This document shows, one piece after another, positions 11,831 to 24,460 of a stretch of 64,000 nucleotides of DNA. The notes under the pieces were generated by a model, which was not told the DNA's origin, searched no databases, and saw only the letters and a program-made list of their open reading frames with translations. Each line of letters starts with the position of its first letter. Position 1 is the first letter of the stretch. The DNA is taken from assembly GCF_000186365.1 (NCBI RefSeq), contig NC_014961.1:248001-312000 (forward strand), given 5' to 3'. Origin of the DNA: Desulfurococcus mucosus DSM 2162. GTDB taxonomy: Archaea; Thermoproteota; Thermoprotei_A; Sulfolobales; Desulfurococcaceae. A program made the position numbers and the translations under genes.

Positions 11831-11942
11831 GCTCCAGGAGCACGCGGCTGTCCACGCATATACCTTGGACAGGTGAGGATGGAACCGGGCCGCATCCACG
11901 TCTCCGAGCCACATGTAGCCGTCGAATAAAACAGTGTAGGGC

Positions 11943-11991
11943 CCCTGATGCAACCGGAAGCCCCGCGCCCTTTAGGGCGGGAGGAGGTCAG
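11943..11991 (+). repeat. IS200/IS605-like right-end hairpin repeat, copy 1
   Basis: The segment runs CCTGATGCAACCGGAAGCC, then a CGCCC-TTTA-GGGCG hairpin, then GGGAGGAGGTCA. This layout matches the right end (3' end of the omega-RNA/reRNA) of TnpB-bearing IS200/IS605-family elements from memory, and it recurs six more times in the window. No tnpA or tnpB lies nearby, so it is a solo end or a small derivative. Its last TCA is the complement of the stop codon of the 288-residue gene on the minus strand. The remaining bases of the gap 11797-11942 show only the promoter. Confidence 0.6.
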
Positions 11992-12854
11992 TCGGTAAGG
12001 GATTCAAGCGCTGTAGCAGTGAAGACGCATGCCTCCCCTGGGGCTCCAGCATGCTTCTCTTCGCTGGCTGCCACGCGTCTCCCAAGCATCTTGCCGAGGT
12101 ATCCCTCTATTATCCCGAGCGTCACGGATGAGGGTGCCTGTATGCCGGCCTCCCTGAGCGCTGAGCACTCCCAGTTATCAGTTATCTCAACCCTGTAGTT
12201 CACATAGTCACTTGTCGAAGCCTTCACAACCCCTAGACCTAGTGCACTGTACACTGCTTCAAGGAACCTCAGCCCCTGCTCCACGTACTTCTCGAAGCCC
12301 CCTGCATCCTCTACTCTCCCATTCCACTCCACGTAGAGGTGTACCCCTATACCCTTACCCAGGCTCCTTAAGACGTTGTGCACCTGGCTCTCCAGCCCCG
12401 GATTGGCTGATAGCTGCCTATACATCTCTCTGACACCCTCCTTCAAAGCACCCTGGGTGAACACATAGGCTCTTTCATGGGCGAAGTAGAGGATAGTGTT
12501 CCGCAGGAACACGTAGGAGTTGAAGGCCGTGTAGTGGTCGACGCTTAAAACTATGTCACGCAACTCCTTCCTCAAGGCCTCCGCCAGGCTGCTGCCGCAT
12601 GCATCATCGCAGTCTTCTACAAGGATGAGCAGCCTCCCCTTATCCATATCCCTCGTTACAAGGCCCGGCGTGGTTATATTCGCTATACTCAGCCCCCTCG
12701 ATAAAATAAGCTCCGAGATCCGTGCTACAACACCTTTACCATTCCTCACAATGAGGTCTAGGAGCGTGAAATACCTGTCTCTGAATAGGAAACCCGTGGG
12801 AACATATGCCACCTGAATAACCGGGGCCTCACCCCTCCTACCTCTCCCGAACAA
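11988..12854 (-). CDS. Unknown protein with possible N-terminal ACT-like segment
   Basis: A 288-residue soluble protein without a firm family match. Residues 27-75 (LLDLIVRNGKGVVARISEL, then GLSIANITTPG) have the beta-alpha-beta look of a ligand-binding ACT or ACT-like domain. A CDDAC pair follows. The C-terminal half contains LHVYVEW-like strands and ends in an alanine-rich tail. The start is a TTG. The stop codon TGA is contributed by the hairpin repeat just downstream, so the present C-terminus may have been set by that insertion. A function cannot be assigned. Confidence 0.6.
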   Translation of the reverse strand: MFGRGRRGEAPVIQVAYVPTGFLFRDRYFTLLDLIVRNGKGVVARISELILSRGLSIANITTPGLVTRDMDKGRLLILVEDCDDACGSSLAEALRKELRDIVLSVDHYTAFNSYVFLRNTILYFAHERAYVFTQGALKEGVREMYRQLSANPGLESQVHNVLRSLGKGIGVHLYVEWNGRVEDAGGFEKYVEQGLRFLEAVYSALGLGVVKASTSDYVNYRVEITDNWECSALREAGIQAPSSVTLGIIEGYLGKMLGRRVAASEEKHAGAPGEACVFTATALESLTD

Positions 12855-12966: not shown

Positions 12967-14283
12967 CTAGTATAGCGGCGCAGTATACTGGAAGACGCAT
13001 CTCTCATCACCGTAAACGCTTGCCAGTAGGGTTATAATCCAGTCATATCCCGAGGGCTGCGTGTCCCAGTATATCTTCCACACTATTTTCACACCGCTGA
13101 ACACTGTTAAACCATTAATGTCCAGGGAGAGCAGGCCTGCGAATAGGTATGCTAGAGTAACACTAGTATACCCGTTACAGGAGAGATTCTTTGGTGGTGG
13201 GAACGGGTTATCGTATGGTGGTGGGAATGTGTCATCGTAAATCGTGTAACCATCGAAGTACACGAAGGCTGTGGAGTTCACGACGAGGCCCGCGGCGAGG
13301 GATAAGGATTTACAGGCATCCACGTTCACGGGTATCTTGAAGATCACGAGGGTTGAGCCATTCCCATAGTAGTATGAGGCGTAGAGGCTTCCAGCAGCGT
13401 AGAGTGTGCCTGAGTCATTTCTAAGGGTTATGAAGGGTGTTTGAGACGTGGAGAGCCTTTCAAGCATCTTACTGTAGACGCGTAGCTGTATCCTGGATGG
13501 ATCAGGAATGTAGAGGGATCTCCGCCCGTTGACATCCACGTATGCATCAATGTACACGGGGAGTATGAAGCTATCGCAGAGCAGTCTACCCCTCACGAAT
13601 GTAACGTTGAACCCGTACTCCACATATTTATCGAAGTGCTTGTAGCCGGCTTCCACCGAGAAAACATCCACGCTTACATTCACCCTTAACACATTGATGA
13701 ACCTCGAGTACGGGATCGACGGGTTACCCTCGAATCCAACCCTGTAGTCGACGCTCGGTGGATAAACCACCACGGTGATCCCAGCATCCCTCATCAACGT
13801 ACCCCAGTTCTGGAGGGCACTGTACACGCTGGATGAGACAGCGTTTAGGTAGAACTGTAGAGTGCTGTTCAAGCCCTGTATGAACCTGTCTAGGGATGCA
13901 TTGACTCCCGGCTTACTGTAGTTCAAGCCGCATTCACCAGGGCACACGAAGCTCGTGTAATCATATATTGTGGGCCATGAGGCGGTTATGGCTCTACATG
14001 TCCTTGAATACCGTGTGGGGGTCTGGTTTATATCGTTGTATCTCTGCATTTCAGATGACCATTTATTCATGAAGCTCTGGTACGCTGTTTTATTAGCGCT
14101 GGCTACTGCTGAGACTATGACCGTGTCGAGTTGGGCGTCGATAGCCCTCCATATGGTCTGCTTCTCCTCCGCGACCTGTATGTTTGAGTAATATGTTAGT
14201 GTTGACGTCGTGTAGAGGAGGGTTGTCGTCATCAGGAGGACGAGCAGTGTAACCGCTATGACTACGGGTAGCTGTGCTCTCAC
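12967..14283 (-). CDS. Pilin-like exported protein, last gene of pilus-like operon
   Basis: A 438-residue protein with one N-terminal hydrophobic helix after a short basic start (MRAQLPVVIAVTLLVLL), the shape of a class III (type IV pilin) signal or an anchor. The rest is extracellular in character: rich in Tyr, Ser, Thr and Asn, with many N-x-S/T sequons and a cysteine pair in VCPGEC. No enzymatic motif. It shares one base with the next upstream gene and ends a five-gene operon of similarly built proteins. It is probably a minor pilin or surface subunit of the machine encoded at 20.1-23.7 kb. Confidence 0.7.
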   Translation of the reverse strand: MRAQLPVVIAVTLLVLLMTTTLLYTTSTLTYYSNIQVAEEKQTIWRAIDAQLDTVIVSAVASANKTAYQSFMNKWSSEMQRYNDINQTPTRYSRTCRAITASWPTIYDYTSFVCPGECGLNYSKPGVNASLDRFIQGLNSTLQFYLNAVSSSVYSALQNWGTLMRDAGITVVVYPPSVDYRVGFEGNPSIPYSRFINVLRVNVSVDVFSVEAGYKHFDKYVEYGFNVTFVRGRLLCDSFILPVYIDAYVDVNGRRSLYIPDPSRIQLRVYSKMLERLSTSQTPFITLRNDSGTLYAAGSLYASYYYGNGSTLVIFKIPVNVDACKSLSLAAGLVVNSTAFVYFDGYTIYDDTFPPPYDNPFPPPKNLSCNGYTSVTLAYLFAGLLSLDINGLTVFSGVKIVWKIYWDTQPSGYDWIITLLASVYGDERCVFQYTAPLY

Positions 14284-14672
14284 TAGTATTCAACCCCCAC
14301 CCCGTACTTCACGACTGTGCCGTATACAGTGCCAACGGTGTAAGTGTAGTTGGCGTGGAACCCTGTGCCAGTCCTCGACACTATTTCAGCCGTGCACGAC
14401 TCGCTTCTCACCGTGCTCAAGCCCCCTGTTAAACTATACTCGGTTATATTCACGTAGACCCTTAGGGCGTTGAGCTTCGTGAGCAATGCGTCAGCTAGGC
14501 TACATGCCGTCCAGTAGGGTTTCCCCATGATTACATCGTATACGCTGACCCCTCTCACGGTAACCCTGTAGCTCGAGGTGTACGCGTAGATACCTGTGAA
14601 TAAGACGGCTACTGTTGCGACAACTAGTCCGAGTGCTACACTGGATACGAGGACCTGTATCTGCCCCTTCAC
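14283..14672 (-). CDS. Small pilin-like protein
   Basis: A 129-residue protein beginning MKGQIQVLVSSVALGLVV, a short basic leader with a Gly at the likely processing site followed by a hydrophobic helix of about 22 residues, as in archaeal type IV pilins. The C-terminal domain is small, beta-rich and carries two sequons and a cysteine pair (WTACSL, ESCTAE). It sits within the operon with one-base spacing on both sides. Likely a pilin or pseudopilin; the family is not named. Confidence 0.7.
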   Translation of the reverse strand: MKGQIQVLVSSVALGLVVATVAVLFTGIYAYTSSYRVTVRGVSVYDVIMGKPYWTACSLADALLTKLNALRVYVNITEYSLTGGLSTVRSESCTAEIVSRTGTGFHANYTYTVGTVYGTVVKYGVGVEY

Positions 14673-14673
14673 T

Positions 14674-15783
14674 TCAACTCCTCCTCCAGCTCCACAAGTC
14701 GACCATGTAGGTGAACATCCCTATGGTCACGTAGGATGAAACCCTGTCGGCGTCGCCGGGCGGGTGTTCGGGTGCATTGGTCACAGTGTAGTTGTTCCTG
14801 TATGCTGGTGCGTAGATCACCCTGGCTCCATCGTAGATTGTTGCAAGCACCATGTTGTAGATCGGGTAGTTGACGCTGGCTTTCTCCGTTGCGTTCTCGA
14901 CTAGGCGTGACCGGCCCTCAGAGTACACCCAGTAGCTCCTTCCCTTGGCAAGGTATAGTGTGTAGGCATCCATGGATGAATTATATGTCTTTTTCTCCCC
15001 GAGATACATGGTTTCAGTGGTATTGTATTCCATGTAGGATACGATGTCCCCGCTCACTATCATTTTTATCGTTATATTCGTCCATGAACGAGTGTAATTC
15101 GCCAACCCCTGTGTAGCCACATAGTATATTGTTGAGTTGAAACCCGTGTAGTTATAGAATGAAGTGGGCTTCAAGCCCGCGTTTCTATCGGCGAGGACTG
15201 TGAGGAGCCCTCCGGGCGCGGCCACTATGTACCCCATGGTGGAGGACTCGTTGAGCCAGTAGCCTATGAACCATGTGCTCCCATACCCGCTTACAGCCAC
15301 AGCCACGGATACACCCTTGAAGGATAGTGCTGAGTAATTATACGTGTACTTGAAGACGTCGCCGGCTTTAACCGGGTTCAACTGCAGCGATATGCTTGCA
15401 GCACCGTTCCAGGAGACGAGTAGAAGGTATGTTGTCATATTGAACGGCGAGTAGACGGTCACCGTTCTTCCGGTTGGGTCAAGGGTGACGTTAATCGGGC
15501 TGTATAGTCTCGCATAATAATAGTACTCGTCGTAGGCTGAGCCCGCATACCTCCTTATAAGGCTGTCCAAGCTGCTCCTAACCTCCGCCACCTCTATAGA
15601 TGTGTTCCCATTATTGTAGGCGTCCCTGAACGCTAGGCTTACAGCGGAGACAAATATGTCTCCTACTGCGACAGTCCCCCTCCCCTTTGTAGGCGTGTAG
15701 AACTGTGTAGCAACCATGTTGTAGAAGGGGAGTATTGAGAGCACTATGAGGACTGCTAGAACATACTCCACAACCTCCTTCAA
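14674..15783 (-). CDS. Pilin-like exported protein
   Basis: A 369-residue protein with an N-terminal membrane helix (VVEYVLAVLIVLSILPFYNMV) directly after MKE, then a long extracellular region rich in Tyr, Thr and Asn with about ten N-x-S/T sequons. No hydrolase or binding motif is evident. Its start overlaps the end of the 862-residue gene by four bases. The signal lacks a clear Gly/Ala processing residue, so it may be a membrane-anchored accessory rather than a processed pilin. Confidence 0.68.
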   Translation of the reverse strand: MKEVVEYVLAVLIVLSILPFYNMVATQFYTPTKGRGTVAVGDIFVSAVSLAFRDAYNNGNTSIEVAEVRSSLDSLIRRYAGSAYDEYYYYARLYSPINVTLDPTGRTVTVYSPFNMTTYLLLVSWNGAASISLQLNPVKAGDVFKYTYNYSALSFKGVSVAVAVSGYGSTWFIGYWLNESSTMGYIVAAPGGLLTVLADRNAGLKPTSFYNYTGFNSTIYYVATQGLANYTRSWTNITIKMIVSGDIVSYMEYNTTETMYLGEKKTYNSSMDAYTLYLAKGRSYWVYSEGRSRLVENATEKASVNYPIYNMVLATIYDGARVIYAPAYRNNYTVTNAPEHPPGDADRVSSYVTIGMFTYMVDLWSWRRS

Positions 15784-18368
15784 CGACCCCTCACCCCTCT
15801 AGGCACCTCTACCACGACTACTCCCCCGGTGCTCTTGATGGCGACCACTATGTCGACTGTGAGGTCGCTTGAGAACACTATGTACCCTGAGTACTGATCC
15901 ACGATCACAGTTGGCGGCTGAGGGAACGAGGCATTCTGGATCAGGCCGCTACTGTAGGATACACTGGGCTCCGGGTACACGAAGGGCCTCAGCATTATCA
16001 ACTGGAATAACCCCGTGGTATTAGTGTTCTTAACATTGCTTAATCCTTCCGCTGACACACCGAAGACTACTCTGAGGGAAGCGGGCTTCACCGTGGATGT
16101 CAAGCTGTAACTACTGTAGAGGGCCCTGTTAAACTGGTTCTCGATGAAGTAGTAGAAGGATCCATTGAAGTATCCCACGCTAGTCCAATACCAGCCCCAT
16201 GCAACATTACTGACTCCCATACCGATGCAAGTGGAGCCCGTGTCCAGGAGATACACGTATCCCCCCTTGCCGACGTTAACATTGCAGATATTGTTGGCTG
16301 ACGCATGTATCATCGCAGAGAACGAGGACGTTGACTCACGGATGCCGGGCGCGTACTCTATGATTGTTCCCCCCGAGATCACCTGGTTTATTTCGAAGAC
16401 GTCGACCAGGACCCCGTCCCCCGTGTATATGTAGAGGTATACGGGGCCATCCACGCCTAGCACGGGTTTAAGCGTCACGTTGAGCACTGCCACGCCATTG
16501 GAGCCCGCCACGCCTGAAGCATTGAAGTCCCCGTCCCACAGCTCGGCGATCCAGCCGGCTGGTAGACCCACGACCATTATGCTCGTCAAGTCAACGGGGC
16601 TACCATACCTTATCGCGACTAGGTCGTCGAACTCTGAGCCGGTGTAGCCTACGGGCACACCATTGTAGTACACTATGGGTCCTATGTAGTCTGCTCTCCC
16701 CGTGAAACCCTGGGTGCCCTGCCTTGGCAACTGGTAGACAAGGGAGCCGTCGCTAGCCCTGTACACTGTGAGCTCTAGCTCGGGGTTCCCCTGCCCCTGC
16801 GCCGGGTTCCTTATCGTGGCGTTAATATAGAACCATTCGCCATCTGGATCCACGCTTACACCCGTGGACTCGCAGTCAAGCTGGGTCTGCCCTTGGAGGA
16901 GCCGGTCCACGTCTAGCTGGCACACCTGGAGGTAGCCCTTGTCATCCACTGTGAGCACTATTGCGAACGCTTGGTTAGACGTGTTGGCAAGCCCCTCGCT
17001 GAGCACGATGCCCCTGTATACCCCGCTGTAGGAGTCGACTCTAACCTTGTAGAGCATGCTTGCGTATTCACCCGTGGAGCTTATGCTTCTCTGCGCTATT
17101 GCTATGGAGATATTGGTGTTCTTGCCGACTTGTATAGTCTGTAACGCCGTGTTATTGACTACGAGGTTCACGCCTTCCCCAGTTACCTCCCCGGTTATGC
17201 TCCAGTTGCCGTAGATAATAGTGTAGTTGGAGAGGCTTGTAGAGGGGTCTATTACGGGTGGTATGAGGAGTATACTGTACTTTTCTGCAGTCGTGTTCCA
17301 GGCGTAGAAGCCTGCCCTGTAGTTCTGGCTGTTGGAGCCTGTGTCAACGGGGCTGCCGAGGGCCTCCACTATCCACCCCAGCTTCCCAGTGGCATCCAGC
17401 TCCTGGACAGAGTATATGTTCACGTAGCCCGGGCTAGCGGTATAGGTGGCTGACACGGTGAGCACTGAGCCGTTTCCAGCGATATTGATTGACGCAGTAT
17501 TATTGTATTTGACTCCCCAGACCCCGCTTAAGAGTAGGCTCTGGATGCCACTGTACTCGCCTAGGCGGCTGAGCAACGTGAATATACCCGGGTTGCTTTT
17601 CTCCTGTGCGAAGCTGTTGCCCCAGTACATGTATATGGTCTTCACCTCCCTAGCCTTCAGCAAGGGTATTTTCACCCATATCAACGCGTTCACGCTGCCC
17701 CAGTACTCTATGTAGTAGTCTAGAGGGGTGACGCCGTCGGAGTCCGTGAACCTCACGTCACTCCTGCTGGGCGAGTACTGTTTACCGAGATACGTGCAGT
17801 TAACTCCTGTTAGTGAAAGATTCACGAGCACCAGGTAGTTGCTGAGATCCACGCCTGCACGCTCAGTTACATTGATCGGCATACGGCAGAGGAATGGAAC
17901 CCCGTTCTCACTGTAACCATATGCAGCGTCGAAGCCGGTTCTATACTTGTTGATCACTACACGGCCCCTGGCGACCTCGACCCCGGGTATCATGGATGCG
18001 GATGCATACCCATATATAGTGTTATCCGGGGAGGACACCACCACGTAGAGGCCGGTGTCGCCTGGTACACGCGGGAACAGCTTACTCAAGCTGCTTCCCA
18101 CACCTATGTATACATTGTACTTCTCGCCTGCAGCCGCCTCCACAGGGTTAGCTAGGTGTATGATAGTGTTGTTCAACCCCCTCATGTAGGCGTCGAGAAC
18201 CGCGCTATTTATCCTTACCGCTATCGCGGAAGCTATCTCCTCGTAGAGTTGCTGGAGGTTATTGTACCTCGTAGTATTATACATTATGGATCCATAGTTG
18301 ACCACGGCTATAATCACTGCCACCATTACGACGCCCCCTATCACATGGGTGACCAGCGGTGAAGCCAC
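15780..18368 (-). CDS. Large surface protein with DUF2341 domain and N-terminal membrane helix
   Basis: An 862-residue protein. A hydrophobic helix at residues 8-26 follows a short leader. Residues about 190-275 match the DUF2341 pattern (SDVRFTDSDGVTPLDYYIEYWG, then WVKIPLLKAREVKTIYMYWGN, given here in two parts), a beta domain found in archaeal surface proteins. The remainder is long, beta-rich and dense in N-x-S/T sequons, consistent with a heavily glycosylated extracellular protein. Being embedded in a run of pilin-like genes it may be an adhesive tip or a giant pseudopilin. It starts one base after the next upstream gene. Confidence 0.75.
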   Translation of the reverse strand: MASPLVTHVIGGVVMVAVIIAVVNYGSIMYNTTRYNNLQQLYEEIASAIAVRINSAVLDAYMRGLNNTIIHLANPVEAAAGEKYNVYIGVGSSLSKLFPRVPGDTGLYVVVSSPDNTIYGYASASMIPGVEVARGRVVINKYRTGFDAAYGYSENGVPFLCRMPINVTERAGVDLSNYLVLVNLSLTGVNCTYLGKQYSPSRSDVRFTDSDGVTPLDYYIEYWGSVNALIWVKIPLLKAREVKTIYMYWGNSFAQEKSNPGIFTLLSRLGEYSGIQSLLLSGVWGVKYNNTASINIAGNGSVLTVSATYTASPGYVNIYSVQELDATGKLGWIVEALGSPVDTGSNSQNYRAGFYAWNTTAEKYSILLIPPVIDPSTSLSNYTIIYGNWSITGEVTGEGVNLVVNNTALQTIQVGKNTNISIAIAQRSISSTGEYASMLYKVRVDSYSGVYRGIVLSEGLANTSNQAFAIVLTVDDKGYLQVCQLDVDRLLQGQTQLDCESTGVSVDPDGEWFYINATIRNPAQGQGNPELELTVYRASDGSLVYQLPRQGTQGFTGRADYIGPIVYYNGVPVGYTGSEFDDLVAIRYGSPVDLTSIMVVGLPAGWIAELWDGDFNASGVAGSNGVAVLNVTLKPVLGVDGPVYLYIYTGDGVLVDVFEINQVISGGTIIEYAPGIRESTSSFSAMIHASANNICNVNVGKGGYVYLLDTGSTCIGMGVSNVAWGWYWTSVGYFNGSFYYFIENQFNRALYSSYSLTSTVKPASLRVVFGVSAEGLSNVKNTNTTGLFQLIMLRPFVYPEPSVSYSSGLIQNASFPQPPTVIVDQYSGYIVFSSDLTVDIVVAIKSTGGVVVVEVPRGVRGR

Positions 18369-19145
18369 CTACACCACCTCCACAACCACGTCTTCAACGA
18401 CTATGTCCACGGAGAACGGGACGCCTGCATACGCCTCCCCGAATCCGGCCTTAACCAGGTCGGCGACACCATAGCTCCTCCTAACGCCCACTATATAGTC
18501 GTAGACAACGATCGTTATGTTCCAGAGGTTTGCAGCAATATTCGAGTAGACGTGTCTAAGCCCGGTTGGAGTGATCCTCAAAGAGTGCCCGTTGCCCCCG
18601 GCTAGGTGGACAGTTAAATTATATAGTTGAAGCACGTAGTAGTATCCCTGTAAATCCCCCTTCAAGACCACGTCGACGCTCAACAGCATCCTGCACACGT
18701 CAAACGATGTCGTCATCAAGCCGCTTGATTCACTCCTGTACTCGTAGACCCTTGGCACGAACCTGACATCGCCTACAAGGTACTCTCCCACCCCGTATAC
18801 AAGGCCCACCGGCGCCCCCGGGATACCTGCTCCCAGTGTTAAAGCAGCACAGTTGAGGACTACAACAGGCGTCGAACTACTATTCAAGTACACCTCTATG
18901 CGTCCAGCTTGAGTATACCCTATGGAGGTATGCTGCGCCGGGATGGATGCAGCGTATTCTCCAGCTAACACTATGTTGGGGAAGTAGGCGGCCATGGATT
19001 TAAAGACGTGTTTAACATACTCGTACTCCGTCTTCTGGAGGCTTGACATCGTGGCAAAGTAACTGTAGGGTATGAGGGCGAGCGCTAGCGCGGTGAAGAC
19101 ACCGACAAGTATAAGGGTTGAAAACGTCTCGGAAACACCCTTCAT
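18369..19145 (-). CDS. Pilin-like protein, first gene of five-gene operon
   Basis: A 258-residue protein starting MKGVSETFSTLILVGVF, an archaeal class III signal-like sequence (K-G before VSE, then a hydrophobic helix). The mature part is beta-rich with a few sequons. It heads the operon running down to 12967. A TATA-like GATTAAAAG on the minus strand lies near 19192-19200, about 50 nt upstream. The similar N-terminus of the gene at 19384 suggests that both are subunits of one filament system, now separated by a repeat-filled gap. Confidence 0.72.
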   Translation of the reverse strand: MKGVSETFSTLILVGVFTALALALIPYSYFATMSSLQKTEYEYVKHVFKSMAAYFPNIVLAGEYAASIPAQHTSIGYTQAGRIEVYLNSSSTPVVVLNCAALTLGAGIPGAPVGLVYGVGEYLVGDVRFVPRVYEYRSESSGLMTTSFDVCRMLLSVDVVLKGDLQGYYYVLQLYNLTVHLAGGNGHSLRITPTGLRHVYSNIAANLWNITIVVYDYIVGVRRSYGVADLVKAGFGEAYAGVPFSVDIVVEDVVVEVV

Positions 19146-19210
19146 GAATATTCATCCATAGCTTTTTACTATCTCTTTTACATCCAACCCCCTTTTAATC
19201 CTTTACAGCT

Positions 19211-19243
19211 GAAAGCCCGATCTTTCAAGGCGGGGTTGAAGGG
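19211..19243 (+). repeat. IS200/IS605-like right-end repeat, degenerate copy 2
   Basis: GAAAGCCCGATCTTTCAAGG followed by CGGGGTTGAAGG matches, with several changes, the GAAAGCC-hairpin-GGGG block of the copies at 27511 and 29155. The hairpin arms are partly decayed. It lies about 80 bases left of a better-preserved copy, in the only sizeable gap of the pilus-like locus. Confidence 0.4.
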
Positions 19244-19320
19244 TTTAAACGTTGCGTGAGGGACCCCTAACTCCTGTGAATTGCATTCAGGGCCAGCCCT
19301 GGGCCCACGGGGGCATCCGC

Positions 19321-19387
19321 CCCGTAGATGAACGGGTGTAAACCCGGATAGATGCAGGAAACCCTTTTAGGGCAGGGAGGAGGTCAG
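19321..19387 (+). repeat. IS200/IS605-like right-end repeat, copy 3, at 3' end of pilin gene
   Basis: The block carries GGGTGTAAACCCGGATAGATG, CAGGAAACCCTTTTAGGGCA and GGGAGGAGGTCA. It shares CCCG(A/G)ATAGATGC(A/G)GG with the copy at 57.1 kb and the GGAGGAGGTCA end with copies 1 and 5. The bases just left (19290-19325) can form further hairpins (CAGGGCC-AG-CCCTG; GGGGGC-ATCC-GCCCC), as in an omega-RNA scaffold. The terminal TCA is the stop codon (TGA) of the pilin gene on the minus strand. Confidence 0.6.
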
Positions 19388-20136
19388 CCTATCATGATGC
19401 CTGTGTTAACCACGTAGATTGTTGCCTTGTAGAGGATGGTGTTGGAGGGTATGCCTGGCAGCGGTGCCCCGTTCACTGTTACACTGGTTACATTATAGTT
19501 CTCTGAGATAACCCGGATCACTGGTGACACTACGAGGTATCCCTGCCCTGTCACCAATGGGGGCTGGTACTCGTTGTTCACGCTTGTGAAGTTGAAGAAG
19601 AATAGTTCGAGGCTCAGGGAGCCCCCTATATTTTTAACGGAGTAGTAGATCCTGCAGGCGTCGAGCACGAGTATGCTCCACCCGTTCGAGTAGTACTCGT
19701 ATAGAGAGGGGACTAGCAGCGTGTCGTTTACAAGCGTCTCGTTAACCCCTCTGAGCAGTGTTGGCTGCATATTGGTTAACACGGGTCTTGCCACGGCGGC
19801 CTTTAAAACGTAGCAGCCGCCTCTGCTCACCGTTACGGTGGAGCCGTTGCTCAGGGTAAGGTTCACTGTGAGGTTAACCCTTTTGAACTCGTACCCTATT
19901 GATGCCACCTCATGTGGATACCTGTACTCCAGTACCCTGTTATCCATGTAGCCCTGGGTTGAGATAACGTCTGCAATGTTCCACAGCACGGTTTTCACAT
20001 GCCCGTACTCTGTTAAAGCCTTCACGTAGTCGGTGTAGAATGCTGTGTAGAAGAATACTGCGAGGGATATTGCGACGGCGACCGTGAACAATATTACAGC
20101 GGCAACCACCTCGCTTACAGCTCTAGTAGCCTTCAT
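19384..20136 (-). CDS. Archaeal type IV pilin-like protein
   Basis: A 250-residue protein with the classic archaeal pilin N-terminus: a basic leader then AVSEVVAAVILFTVAVAISL, the hydrophobic helix that packs in the filament core. The mature domain is beta-rich with N-x-T sites. It lies nine bases after the platform-protein gene on the same strand, so it should be a major or principal subunit of this machine. Its stop codon is provided by the adjoining repeat, so the C-terminus may have been altered by that insertion. Confidence 0.8.
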   Translation of the reverse strand: MKATRAVSEVVAAVILFTVAVAISLAVFFYTAFYTDYVKALTEYGHVKTVLWNIADVISTQGYMDNRVLEYRYPHEVASIGYEFKRVNLTVNLTLSNGSTVTVSRGGCYVLKAAVARPVLTNMQPTLLRGVNETLVNDTLLVPSLYEYYSNGWSILVLDACRIYYSVKNIGGSLSLELFFFNFTSVNNEYQPPLVTGQGYLVVSPVIRVISENYNVTSVTVNGAPLPGIPSNTILYKATIYVVNTGIMIG

Positions 20137-20145
20137 GCCTCTACG

Positions 20146-21888
20146 CTACCCCGTGAAGAATGGTGTTGCAAGCATTACTATGAGGGTGATCAACGTGAGG
20201 AGGACGGCGTGGACTACCCCGGCTATAACCCTGCCCGAGGACACTTTGCCCGCGACAATACCCATCACATAGTTGTTTAAAACTATGCTTGGCAGGACTA
20301 CTCCGGCTGCCTGGTTGAATGTGCCCACCTGTATCGGCAGCTTAGCCATGTAGCCCACCATGTATATCACGGTGACGGCTGAGAGTATGCCGCCCATGTA
20401 CGGGACGATCATCAGTGTCCTCAAGCTCCTCTTCCTCTCATCCTCTATGGCTTCAACGCTCTCAGCGAACCATGCAAGGTTCTCCAGTACTTCAACCGTG
20501 CCTCCCCCTACCTCTATGGAGTCTGTGAGGATGAATAATAGTACCTGCCCTATCCACGACCTGATCTTCCTCATCACTTCATCGGTGATCCTCCTTAAGG
20601 GTATCCCTATGCTTAACTCCATTGCTATCTTCCTGAGGTGCGGTGTGAAAACCCCGTAGTCCCTTGGACTCAACTCTATGATGCTTCTCTCAGGGGGGAG
20701 CCCGGTTTTCCTCACCTCGACGAGATCCCTTAGGAACCTCGTTATCCCCCTTGTAACCTTGTACTCTCTCGAGGAGTAAATGTAGTATGCTAGCCCCGGT
20801 AGGGAGGCAATGATCAGCGCTGTGGACAACGCTATTGATGAATACATGTAGCCCGGTGGGTTAGCAATGTTGAATAATAGGAGGAGGCGTCCAGTGAGCT
20901 GCGTGAACGGGTTCATCCTCAACGGGTGGTATGGCGGCAGCATCGTGTAGAAGAACACGCCGAACACTACGAGTAGGAGTGTTATAGGTATGAATGTTGC
21001 AAAGAAAACCATGTAGGGCTTCCAATCCATGAATGGATCCTTGAACTGTATGAGGTCGGCTAGATATATTATGACGCCGCTCAGCAAGGGCATAACTATG
21101 TATAGGAAGAAGAACATTCCCTCACTTGACAGGCCGAAGGGCACGACGCCTGCGAACCCTGTTGTCACAAAGTAGAGGACGGTGAAGCTTATCATCGTTA
21201 ACAGTATCATGGCTAAGTATGCTTCAAGCAGCCCGCCCAGCCTATCCGCTATTATCTTCATGCCTACGAGCATCTCGTTGAAGAGGAGCCTTGATCTTTT
21301 ATTAAGGTAGTCTACGACGTCCCCACCGGCCTTCACCGTGGCTATGTAGCCTGAAAGCGTCTCCTTAACCCTTGAACTAGGGGTTCTCTTCGCCAGCTCG
21401 TCGAAGGCCGTCAACGGGTCTCTCCCAAGTATCCTGTTCAACAATATGAACCTCTGTGCCAGCTCACTCGTCCTCTTGAAAATCGTGGAGCCCTTGAGGA
21501 TTCTTTCAAACGCGATGTAGGGTGAAAGCCCGCTCATAACCATCGTGCTAAGATAGCTTGAGAGAAACGGGAACTCGCCGTCAATGGATGAAGCCCTATT
21601 CGACGCGTAGAGCGAGGGCAGGGAGACCATGAGGAGGAGTACGAGCGTGGGTATTGAAACAGTGATGGCAACGCCCAGGGGGCTCCGGAAGAGGAGTGCG
21701 AGGAGAATTGTCAGGGTGATTGAGGCAGCGAGTGAAACGATGAACACGAGCCCGGTTAACGCAGCGTAGACCTCTGAGTGCATGTGGATACCGGACTTCT
21801 TGATCGAGTCACCTATATTCGGAAACATCTTTAAAATCCGCTTACCAATCCAGTTGAAATACTTGTAGACCCAGTCCCAGAACCTCAA
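20146..21888 (-). CDS. Type II/IV secretion platform protein (TadC/FlaJ/UpsF-like)
   Basis: A 580-residue polytopic protein with two copies of the T2SSF-type cytoplasmic helical domain (about residues 95-210 and 395-500, the latter with PPERSIIELS) separated by membrane segments, with a final pair of helices at the C-terminus. This is the inner-membrane platform around which the assembly ATPase works. The start is a TTG with GGTGG about five bases upstream. It is divergent from its ATPase partner and followed by a pilin gene. Confidence 0.9.
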   Translation of the reverse strand: MRFWDWVYKYFNWIGKRILKMFPNIGDSIKKSGIHMHSEVYAALTGLVFIVSLAASITLTILLALLFRSPLGVAITVSIPTLVLLLMVSLPSLYASNRASSIDGEFPFLSSYLSTMVMSGLSPYIAFERILKGSTIFKRTSELAQRFILLNRILGRDPLTAFDELAKRTPSSRVKETLSGYIATVKAGGDVVDYLNKRSRLLFNEMLVGMKIIADRLGGLLEAYLAMILLTMISFTVLYFVTTGFAGVVPFGLSSEGMFFFLYIVMPLLSGVIIYLADLIQFKDPFMDWKPYMVFFATFIPITLLLVVFGVFFYTMLPPYHPLRMNPFTQLTGRLLLLFNIANPPGYMYSSIALSTALIIASLPGLAYYIYSSREYKVTRGITRFLRDLVEVRKTGLPPERSIIELSPRDYGVFTPHLRKIAMELSIGIPLRRITDEVMRKIRSWIGQVLLFILTDSIEVGGGTVEVLENLAWFAESVEAIEDERKRSLRTLMIVPYMGGILSAVTVIYMVGYMAKLPIQVGTFNQAAGVVLPSIVLNNYVMGIVAGKVSSGRVIAGVVHAVLLTLITLIVMLATPFFTG

Positions 21889-21933
21889 AACACTCCACCA
21901 TGCGGCCTAGTCGTCGAGAAGTATCTTTAAATA

Positions 21934-21972
21934 CTGCAAACTTATAAATCTAAGCAACCCTATAGTTTAAAC
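21934..21972. promoter_or_regulatory. Divergent promoters between platform and ATPase genes
   Basis: Three TATA-like elements lie within 40 bases: CTTTAAATAC, CTTATAAATC and AGTTTAAACC. The left one suits the platform gene on the minus strand, the right ones the ATPase gene on the plus strand, leaving leaders of roughly 30-50 bases that contain the ribosome-binding sites. Exact start sites are not determinable by eye. Confidence 0.45.
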
Positions 21973-22029
21973 CATGCACTGTGTTTTTCAACCAGTTGCC
22001 TCCAGTAACTATCAGAGGGGTTAGGGGTA

Positions 22030-23706
22030 TTGAAGCCGAGGCTGAAGCTACCGTTACCCTTGAAGCGCGGGGAGAGCGGTGGGAAGCGGGTTGAGGAGAA
22101 GGCGAAGATACTGAGGGAGAGTATCGCGGCAATCGAGGAGTTGGTGCAGGTAACGCAGAGGGATCCATCGTGGCGTGTGCTGGACTCGTACTACATATAC
22201 AAGCCCTTCGTGAAGATAACTATTGCTGAAACACCCAAGGGGCCAACATACTTCGTTGAGGAGCAGGGATTGGACGAGGAGGACAGGGCCGCCCTCGAGA
22301 AGCTCTACGAGATCCTGATGGATGAGATAAGGCCACCTCAACGGAGAGAGGACTTAGCGGACTTAAAAGGGTACGTCTTCAAGGAGGTTGAGCGGATCAG
22401 CGACAAGTACCGTGAGAAGCTCGGGATGGTGGGTTCGAGGAGGCTTAAGCTAATGTACTATATTGAGAGAAACCTCCTCGGCTACGGTGTCCTAGACCCC
22501 ATAATGAAGGACCCCAACATCGAGGACATATCGTGTAACGGCGTCTCAATACCGATCTTCGTTTGGCACAGGAAGTACGAGAGCATACCGACAAACATAG
22601 CTTTCACCGGTGAGGAGGCTTTAAACGAGCTGATAATGAAGATGGCGCACATGGCTGGGAAGCACATAAGCATAGCCTACCCAATACTCGACGCAATGCT
22701 ACCGGAGAAGCACCGTGTGGCAGCAACCTACAGTAAAGAGGTCTCCACGAAGGGGCCCTCCTTCACAATACGTAAGTTCCGTGAGAAACCATACAGCATA
22801 GTGGAGGTCATAGAGCAGGGCAACATAGATGCCGTCACAGCAGCCTACCTCTGGATGCTACTGGAGCACGGTAAGACATTCATGATCGCCGGCGGCACGG
22901 GTACAGGTAAGACAACAATGCTGAACGCGCTCTCAATGTTCATAAAGCCAGGCATGAAGATAGTGACTATAGAGGATACACCCGAGCTCAACCTTCCACA
23001 CGTCAACTGGGTTCAGTTAACGAGCAGGGAGACATACGTCGTCGGGACACAGAGCCTGGGGACAAGCGTCAAGCTATACGACCTGGTTAAACTCAGCCTC
23101 AGGTATAGGCCTGACTACGTGATCGTTGGCGAGGTACGTGGAGAGGAGGCCTCAGTGCTCTTCCAGGCCATGGCTACGGGTCACAGCGGGGCAAGCACGA
23201 TCCACGCTGAGACCCTTGACTACGCTATTAAAAGGCTGACAAGCCCCCCGATGAACATACCTCCCACATACATGAGGCTCATGAACGTCTTCATGCACAT
23301 TCAGAGAGTGATCACCAGGGTTGAGAAGGGCGTTGTGAAGGTGCGGAGGAGGATCACGGTTGTCCAAGAGGTTGAAGACTACGAGAAGTATAGGTTGATA
23401 AGCAAGTGGGATCCAAGGACGGATAAGCACGTGGTCAACCTGGGTGAGAGCATGCATCTCGAAGACGTCGCCGCGAAGAAAGGCCTGGACGTGGAGGACG
23501 TGGTGGAGGAAGTGAAAAGGAGAGCAGTAGTCCTAGAGTGGATGAGGGAGGAGGGCATTAGGGATGCATGGGATGTCTCGAGAAGAATATTCGACTACTA
23601 CTATGAGCCGAAAACCGTGTATGAGCATGCTGTGAAACGGTTGGCCGAGATCAGGGGGACGAGCACTGAGAAGGTGAGCGAGGAGTTAACGTCTCCTCAA
23701 GCCTAG
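22030..23706 (+). CDS. Type II/IV secretion (pilus assembly) ATPase, FlaI/UpsE-like
   Basis: A 558-residue hexameric secretion ATPase of the VirB11/PilT/GspE group. Walker A is GGTGTGKT (288-295). The acidic box region IEDTPELNLP, Walker B VIVGEVRGEE and the His box MATGHSGASTIHAE follow in order. It powers assembly of a pilus or pseudopilus at the cytoplasmic membrane. The start is a TTG with GAGGGGT about nine bases upstream; no in-frame ATG lies earlier. It is divergent from the platform gene, unlike the co-directional order of known Ups, Aap and archaellum operons. Confidence 0.93.
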   Translation: MKPRLKLPLPLKRGESGGKRVEEKAKILRESIAAIEELVQVTQRDPSWRVLDSYYIYKPFVKITIAETPKGPTYFVEEQGLDEEDRAALEKLYEILMDEIRPPQRREDLADLKGYVFKEVERISDKYREKLGMVGSRRLKLMYYIERNLLGYGVLDPIMKDPNIEDISCNGVSIPIFVWHRKYESIPTNIAFTGEEALNELIMKMAHMAGKHISIAYPILDAMLPEKHRVAATYSKEVSTKGPSFTIRKFREKPYSIVEVIEQGNIDAVTAAYLWMLLEHGKTFMIAGGTGTGKTTMLNALSMFIKPGMKIVTIEDTPELNLPHVNWVQLTSRETYVVGTQSLGTSVKLYDLVKLSLRYRPDYVIVGEVRGEEASVLFQAMATGHSGASTIHAETLDYAIKRLTSPPMNIPPTYMRLMNVFMHIQRVITRVEKGVVKVRRRITVVQEVEDYEKYRLISKWDPRTDKHVVNLGESMHLEDVAAKKGLDVEDVVEEVKRRAVVLEWMREEGIRDAWDVSRRIFDYYYEPKTVYEHAVKRLAEIRGTSTEKVSEELTSPQA

Positions 23707-23710
23707 CATA

Positions 23711-24460
23711 CTAGCCTACGAGCAGGGTTTCCAGTCTAACCTCGACGCCCAGTTCATGTAGCTCTATGAGTAATGGTAGATCCTTCTCTATGGCTGCTTT
23801 AAGCTCCGCATCCCTGCATTTCCCGAACAACCCTTTCTTCCTAAGCTTGATTCTCACGACGAGGTAGCCGTTGCCTACATCGGCGGCCGGCTCATCCTGG
23901 AGAATGCAGCCGTATAGGTCGGCGGTCTCACGGACTATGTCTCTTAGATGCCTCAGGAAGCCATGTAGCTTGCCTTCATCCACGCTAGGCGGCTTCACCT
24001 CTTGGGTGGCTGGGCGCGGTGTTGCAGCGGGCTCCACCTGCCTGGGTACTGCTTCCGGAGCCGGCTTTTTTCCAGCCGGCTCCTCCACTGGTGCTTGAAG
24101 ACTGAATAAGCGGCACTCCAGGTAGGATGACGCAAGCTTCTTGACTAGATCCCTTAAAGCAATATAGCCGGATAGCCTCACCGATGCCTCGGGGAAATAC
24201 TCGGCGACGGATTTCACGACCCCGTCTTCAAGCAGGATAGTGTAGCTGCTTTCATCACGGCAGGAGAGCAGGTAGGAGCCCTTCGCCAGCTTAGTGGAGA
24301 GTGCTTCAACGAAGTCGGAAAGCGTTACATTTAATACCTCGAGATAACGCCCTTTTAAAAGTAGTTCAGCCTCCTTAACCGGGTCGCCCAGTAGGTCGAG
24401 GCTCCCAGAGTCGTATTTAAGCCCTGTTAAACCAGGTAAATCACTCAAAACACTAGACAC
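23711..24460 (-). CDS. Unknown two-domain protein with Pro/Ala linker, convergent with secretion ATPase
   Basis: A 249-residue protein made of an N-terminal domain (1-115, including LEDGVVKSVAEYFPEASVRL), a Pro/Ala/Lys-rich linker (about 117-160) and a C-terminal alpha/beta domain (165-249, LRHLRDIVRETADLYGC). No signal or membrane segment, so cytoplasmic. It ends four bases from the ATPase gene on the opposite strand. I do not recognise the family; the N-terminal layout is reminiscent of the protein at 37637-38581. The start is a GTG. Confidence 0.6.
   Translation of the reverse strand: MSSVLSDLPGLTGLKYDSGSLDLLGDPVKEAELLLKGRYLEVLNVTLSDFVEALSTKLAKGSYLLSCRDESSYTILLEDGVVKSVAEYFPEASVRLSGYIALRDLVKKLASSYLECRLFSLQAPVEEPAGKKPAPEAVPRQVEPAATPRPATQEVKPPSVDEGKLHGFLRHLRDIVRETADLYGCILQDEPAADVGNGYLVVRIKLRKKGLFGKCRDAELKAAIEKDLPLLIELHELGVEVRLETLLVG

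Follow-up and report, generated by a model that had tools for sequence, protein, structure and literature searches.

A family-level type IV pilus locus of Desulfurococcaceae with a lectin-fold pilin-like protein and a minor-pilin block that appears to be exchanged as a unit

A 64,000-nucleotide stretch of Desulfurococcus mucosus DSM 2162 (the window, positions 248001 to 312000 of a genome that is a single contig of 1,314,639 bases) contains, between its positions 12967 and 23706, a locus that reads as a type IV pilus (T4P) machine of the Desulfurococcaceae, with both the T2SSE-type ATPase and the T2SSF-type platform protein expected of the T4P superfamily. We consider it probable that the locus specifies an adhesion-type T4P in which an exchangeable cassette encodes the tip complex with its lectin. 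The machine genes, the exported character of the large proteins, the lectin fold, the restriction to one lineage, and the exchange of the cassette all find support at the level of sequence.

Organization of the locus and export of its products

Eight open reading frames occupy the span, with the ATPase gene on the plus strand, the platform gene (TadC) on the minus strand, and then six minus-strand genes lettered F, E, D, C, B, and A in reading order, whose products are membrane anchored and look secreted; neighboring genes from A to E abut or overlap. The pilus-like machine with divergent ATPase and platform genes that a preliminary description of the window had placed here is found at those positions.

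22030-23706, plus strand: secretion ATPase (T2SSE; FlaI/UpsE/AapE type), 558 amino acids (aa), TTG start; Pfam T2SSE, 4.7e-35
20146-21888, minus strand: platform protein, TadC/FlaJ type, 580 aa; Pfam T2SSF, 3.5e-19, in two stretches that are the two T2SSF halves
19384-20136, minus strand: F, putative minor pilin, 250 aa; leader ...RA↓VSEVVAAVILF; paralogue of E
18369-19145, minus strand: E, putative minor pilin, 258 aa; leader MKG↓VSETFSTLIL, by alignment
15780-18368, minus strand: D, modular pilin-like protein, 862 aa; Pfam DUF2341, 5e-14, and AlphaFold2 model
14674-15783, minus strand: C, membrane-anchored β protein, 369 aa; unusual N terminus MKEVVEYVLA; lineage restricted
14283-14672, minus strand: B, small putative minor pilin, 129 aa; leader MKG↓QIQVLVSS, by alignment; conserved across loci
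12967-14283, minus strand: A, putative minor pilin, 438 aa; leader M(K/R)A↓QLP, by alignment

The whole genome yields two T2SSF matches, both in this platform gene (its two halves), and a single prepilin peptidase (PF01478, 2.7e-9, G000:C1:1164548). The best NCBIfam model for the ATPase is the archaellum ATPase FlaI, at 382.9 bits and below its cutoff of 550. The Ups models also score below their cutoffs (UpsF, 81.6 of 400 bits; UpsB, 14.6 of 70), as do those of the bindosome (BasE, 268.7 of 1000 bits; BasF, 56 of 1300). The genome has no archaellin (PF01917), on which ground an archaellum was rejected; Thermosphaera-type relatives have both archaellins and this locus. A second T4P-like operon lies at about 470000 to 475000 of the same genome (G000:C1; L053:9475-13792), with a more divergent secretion ATPase (T2SSE, 1e-21), a platform-like protein of 476 aa that is invisible to Pfam, and three small pilin-like genes. 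Here and below, G000 and the L numbers are genome and locus handles, and the names Staphylothermus, Thermosphaera, and Thermogladius, which we take to apply to the relatives in question, likewise serve as handles only.

Pilin-like class III leaders followed by a hydrophobic helix were read in A, B, E, and F, and E and F are paralogous (hhalign probability, 99.9). N-X-S/T sequons exceed the number expected from composition in A (11 versus 3.7), C (13 versus 4.2), D (19 versus 8.5), and F (7 versus 2.8), the ATPase and platform have none, and charged residues make up 12 to 15% of these four proteins versus 23 to 29% of the cytoplasmic neighbors. With sequons at two to three times expectation and few charged residues, A, C, D, and F are read as exported, as had been supposed for the large products. 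The AlphaFold2 model of C (predicted local distance difference test [pLDDT], 89.1) has helices at residues 2 to 28, 38 to 57, and 66 to 80 followed by β domains; its fold search returned Ig-like arrangements alone, with scores too low for a fold to be named (residues 95 to 181; Z of 7.7 across 78 residues). A search of PDB sequence profiles with E gave nothing significant.

We favor a reading of A to F as minor pilins or tip proteins, with the probable major pilin encoded by a separate gene. A stand-alone PilA-type pilin of 144 aa (MKKAISPVIATVIIV...) is encoded elsewhere in the genome (stand-alone pilins were sought by family only); it is 44 to 62% identical to pilins that adjoin gene A in many relatives, and PilA directly follows A in L024, L026, L037, L039, L040, L041, L059, and L061. 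The PilA alignment matches the adhesion-pilus (AAP) chain 8q30 of Sulfolobus acidocaldarius (9.5e-11). PilA similarity tracks the motor and not the cassette type; between L041 and L037, PilA is 69% and TadC 74% identical, versus 31% for E and 32% for C. PilA is placed here as the likely major pilin for this motor, and the large proteins would be accessory to an ordinary small pilin. The stand-alone PilA gene adjoins a 317-aa TFIIB-like gene (L055:232-1185; the likeness was read by eye); TFIIB homologues are among the T4P regulators listed by Makarova et al. (PMC4858521).

Distribution among relatives

Of 40 family genomes, 25 have platform orthologues of 50 to 82% identity, and six others have a platform homologue of 31 to 34% identity only. 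The order ATPase (plus), platform (minus), [F], E, D, C, B, A, with the block codirectional with the platform, recurs in every Desulfurococcaceae locus spanned by a contig, and thus the arrangement is not due to chance. Outside the family, in loci more distantly related, the ATPase and platform genes are codirectional, with small “SPVIATVII” pilins alongside. The profile of C finds 10 of 300 Thermoproteota genomes, all of them Desulfurococcaceae. The earlier suggestion of an unusual set of large pilin-like proteins is right, and the set is lineage specific. By sequence, then, the system is conserved at the family level and is no one-off.

A lectin fold in protein D and its changing carrier

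In its AlphaFold2 model (mean pLDDT, 77.5), D begins with a helix of 60 residues (4 to 63), which is followed by β structure, and the β head is interrupted by DUF2341 (203 to 260) and a concanavalin A (ConA)-like lectin/glucanase jelly roll (approximately 263 to 801). The head gives VIA Z scores of 14 to 16 over 180 to 200 residues to legume lectins, GH43 C-terminal domains, and alginate lyases. In the model, then, D is a pilin-like stalk whose head contains a ConA-like lectin fold, so that the pilin moiety and the ConA-like lectin domain expected of a PilC-like modular pilin are both found in it, and the lectin module probably binds glycans on cells or surfaces. A PDB sequence profile search with D gave nothing significant. 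The Foldseek list for D also contains binding domains of botulinum and tetanus neurotoxins, which were set aside as a generic ConA-like jelly roll without functional meaning. Several relatives have short D orthologues of 168 to 170 aa that lack the insert; they resemble long D strongly over their first 120 residues (1e-10 to 2e-29) and weakly at the C terminus, which suggests that the lectin module is inserted in the pilin head. F always accompanies long D where both are seen and does not accompany short D, being found in D-type cassettes only.

The insert is carried by D in 13 loci, by E in 5, and by A in 3, and two carriers were never seen together (some loci are partly covered). In L024, L039, and L040 (a group whose loci are also entered as L026 and L030), D is short, and E, of 618 to 635 aa, has DUF2341 (4e-16) and a weak L-type-lectin match. 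These E proteins have the first part of the D module in common with it (hhalign, 95.7%), and the A insert of L037, L042, and L066, the Staphylothermus-type carrier, has another part in common (hhalign, 96.0%). The rehoming of an adhesin module among at least three minor pilins points to these subunits belonging to one complex. In L042, the frame of gene A (13390-14862) appears to be lost late, leaving 490 aa, with the A profile ending at about position 455; A of the near relative L037 has 621 aa. A frameshift or phase variation is possible there.

Exchange of the minor-pilin block

The sharpest contrast between motor and cassette is seen in L063, L065, and L066 (the g16 contigs), which have D-, E-, and A-type cassettes, respectively. 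Their platforms are 89 to 97% identical, and their minor pilins are only 28 to 38% (E) and 34 to 36% (D scaffold) identical. L065 and L066 share 97% of TadC versus 38% of E, 35% of the D scaffold, and 30% of C; L063 and L065 share 89% of TadC versus 28% of E and 36% of D. Pairs of the same cassette type with TadC identities of 90 to 98% retain 77 to 95% in D and 66 to 93% in C. At the DNA level, the identity of L065 and L066 falls from 91 to 99% to about 50% within 200 nucleotides of the TadC stop codon, whereas the control pair L037 and L042 stays at about 75 to 95% throughout, and the same gene boundary is the breakpoint on three independent contigs.

Carrier types interleave in the platform tree. 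In the E tree, the D-types all group together (100/99), and the platform grouping of the trio is rejected (approximately unbiased [AU] test, P = 6.6e-6); the C tree unites the D-types (99/98) and rejects L065 with L066 (AU P = 8.9e-6). With the trio removed, the Staphylothermus-side motor group is still rejected by E (AU P = 7e-7) and by C (3e-75), and ATPase and TadC jointly reject the D-types as a single clade (AU P = 1.7e-7). The conflict between motor and cassette trees is strong and supports, as far as sequences can, the exchange as a unit of the block between platform and major pilin.

Proposed mechanism and alternatives

In the mechanism that we propose, PibD would cleave PilA, and the ATPase and TadC platform would extrude the PilA shaft. 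A to F would make up a minor-pilin complex of their own, which would most likely sit at the pilus tip, start assembly, and present one adhesin, here D, a pilin stalk bearing DUF2341 and the ConA-like lectin module. The block [F]-E-D-C-B-A would be replaced whole by recombination between related species while motor and shaft stay, and the adhesin of each cassette would ride on D, on E, or on A. Replacement en bloc with motor and shaft kept is what a distal, cofolding complex predicts. The preliminary description had left the choice among adhesion, contact, and secretion open; adhesion is strengthened by the ConA-like fold of D and the exported A, C, D, and F, and nothing points to secretion. 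A bolder version, possible but somewhat short of an even chance, treats the cassettes as serotype-like allelic tip modules, with the lectin moved among the D, E, and A scaffolds and the block exchanged across genera, so that near-identical motors would meet different partners or surfaces; the advantage may lie in partner choice or virus evasion.

Several observations weigh against this interpretation. The model of D has a predicted template modeling score of 0.52 and was built at shallow depth (15 sequences), and a lectin fold alone is no proof of sugar binding. The C termini of short and long D match weakly (best relative, 7.5e-4; D of the window, iE of 0.43). In L028, no minor pilin has an insert, and the E inserts of L059 and L065 have no similarity to the D module, so that an adhesin role is not established for each insert. 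Of the six proteins, to all of which a leader plus hydrophobic helix had been assigned, four (A, B, E, and F) have both; the K/R-G/A cleavage motif is missing from C (MKEVVEYVLA...) and D (MASPLVTHVIGG...), each of which nevertheless opens with a membrane helix. With the trio removed, the rejection of D-type monophyly by TadC alone falls just short of significance (P = 0.068). The trio itself comes from short pieces of metagenome-assembled genomes (MAGs), with L065 and L066 from one MAG of 7% contamination. Finally, no filament of this organism has been tied to the locus.

The motifless N termini of C and D would also suit an arrangement in which A to F are basal, S-layer-contacting, or envelope parts, similar to ArlF/ArlG, that anchor the pilus, with the lectin binding the cell's own glycosylated S-layer. 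The weak Ig-like match of C (fold common in envelope proteins) fits as well, and Makarova et al. (PMC4858521) likened the extra Desulfurococcales components to the archaellum minor set. Against this, A, B, E, and F have pilin leaders, the long pilin-like first helix is kept in short D forms and in the D models, and wholesale exchange with the motor kept is easier to account for if the set is distal than if it is a base constrained to fit both motor and S-layer. We regard a basal location as unlikely, if still worth keeping in mind.

A DNA-uptake or mating pilus, in which a swappable lectin tip picks mating partners or binds DNA for transformation, is kept as a candidate because transformation of Methanococcus maripaludis needs a DUF2341 protein of a pilus locus: repeated transposon hits in that gene abolish it (PMC10133366). 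Sulfolobus Ups pili, moreover, recognize species via S-layer glycans (PMC7064770). The locus, however, contains no DNA-import gene, and DUF2341 elsewhere stands in an adhesion context, which makes such a role improbable as the primary one; it is compatible with an adhesion pilus, being served by the same machine.

Slightly less credit still is due to the possibility that the cassette exchange is an artifact of metagenome assembly or of hidden paralogous loci. The sharpest cases are indeed the short contigs of the incomplete MAGs described above, but the tree conflict persists without them, in sets that include complete genomes (L037 and L042) and longer contigs (L041 on 60 kb, L059 on 16.5 kb), and the shared breakpoint is found on contigs that are independent of one another. 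A Tad/T2SS-like apparatus that secretes or displays large proteins and builds no filament is very improbable: the operon has more large exported proteins than small pilins and the major pilin is not in the window locus, but many relatives have a PilA-family pilin next to the locus (here it is encoded by a stand-alone gene), each large protein has its own membrane helix, and no soluble exoprotein is linked.

Neighboring genes and further features

The conserved unit, as judged from sequence, exceeds 12967-23706, since two flanking genes travel with it; two noncoding features lie inside.

23711-24460, minus strand: G249, linked protein of 249 aa, charged and probably cytoplasmic; without Pfam or NCBIfam match
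21889-22029: putative divergent promoter region between ATPase and platform genes, 141 bp; TATA-like TTTAAATA and TTATAAAT runs, by direct reading
19146-19383: E-F intergenic gap; short blastn matches to the ends of an IS605-type TnpB gene elsewhere in the genome
11988-12854, minus strand: ACT- and V4R-like linked protein, 288 aa; profile matches

G249 lies beside the ATPase gene wherever a contig reaches and is kept there in relatives; PDB sequence profiles gave nothing significant for it. The ACT+V4R protein matches profiles of the acetolactate synthase small subunit (1e-8) and MJ1460 (2.1e-4), and among relatives it accompanies the locus at one of two places, either following gene A or lying between the ATPase gene and G249. 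No DNA-binding domain was seen in it; it is a possible ligand sensor or regulator. The sole match of an Rfam scan was HgcC at 11847-12004, below threshold. In Staphylothermus-type loci (L039:4494-6775, L037:14927-17050), G249 is followed by a KaiC-like ATPase and an adjoining membrane protein of 448 to 511 aa; this ATPase, not found at the corresponding place in the window, is possibly an ArlH-like partner.

The E-F gap matches L081 (84% over 44 bp) and L055 (90% over 30 bp) by blastn; the short stretches that it shares lie at the prepilin peptidase locus and around the TnpB gene adjoining the stand-alone PilA gene. It may conceivably be the relic of a deleted IS605-type mobile element. The pilus ATPases of relatives contain inteins (L024:5259-9782, L042:5162-8371, and L059:5493-8660, with Pfam Intein_splicing and LAGLIDADG matches; also L041:11939-16348 and, probably, L064:1-2428), which sit at two different sites, about profile positions 300 and 388; the L024 and L041 ATPases apparently have two each.

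Comparison with known systems

The order of genes, proposed earlier as a check on the locus, is the same in all Desulfurococcaceae loci that a contig spans, and a literature search for these pili in Desulfurococcaceae or Staphylothermus returned nothing relevant. The putative major pilin PilA is homologous to the pilins of the Sulfolobus Aap pilus, according to its 8q30 match. To our knowledge, Aap lacks both a lectin module and a set of large minor pilins numbering five to six.

A close likeness in design is to PilA/PilB/PilC of Streptococcus sanguinis (PMC9934059), where Ig-like and ConA-like lectin modules are grafted on one minor pilin in a small tip complex, and this lectin-bearing minor pilin, predicted at the tip, binds glycans; the tip-lectin mechanism proposed here follows that model and is also in keeping with the recognition of glycans by Sulfolobus Ups pili. 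S. sanguinis PilC differs in being bacterial, with sequence homology not shown, and in having its extra domains C-terminal to the pilin on a fixed carrier, whereas here they apparently lie inside the head. Sulfolobus Ups pili (PMC7064770) are likewise crenarchaeal T4P in which a pilin region sets species-specific glycan recognition and its exchange changes the partner, but that specificity resides in the major pilin UpsA and here would reside in a separate minor-pilin cassette. In the IncI PilV shufflon (PMC9045228), too, the binding part of a minor-pilin adhesin is exchanged while the machine stays, but by site-specific inversion of gene ends within one cell, in contrast to the whole-block replacement between lineages seen here.

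For the archaeal systems, the comparison is with Makarova, Koonin, and Albers (2016; PMC4858521), who propose tip adhesins with DUF2341 in Methanococci, Methanothermobacteria, and Thermococci, argue in general for modular evolution with exchange of pilin sets, and call it a “major enigma” that T4P are so abundant and diverse in hyperthermophiles. The Methanococcus/Thermococcus T4P (clade 1) resemble this locus in having large DUF2341 proteins, proposed as PilY-like tip adhesins; they have two large proteins per locus, whereas here DUF2341 lies inside a pilin head and its carrier changes. The Desulfurococcales system (ATPase subclade 4A) is described there as an ATPase, TadC, and three to four additional components whose origin could not be traced and which are proposed to be a set of minor pilins. 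By description, its composition agrees with that of our locus, which is thus probably not an undescribed system.

What is new here is the lectin fold, the one-carrier rule (with three scaffolds as alternatives), and exchange at the junction level among loci whose motors are nearly identical; the main text on 4A describes neither an adhesin or lectin on the components, nor carrier switching, nor exchange at this level. The part that varies can be assigned to one delimited, sharply bounded block, each version of which has a single adhesin-type domain, and the locus family supplies candidate archaeal pilus lectins for glycan arrays. The general statement that T4P evolve modularly becomes testable: a change of cassette should alter the binding target while the motor stays constant.

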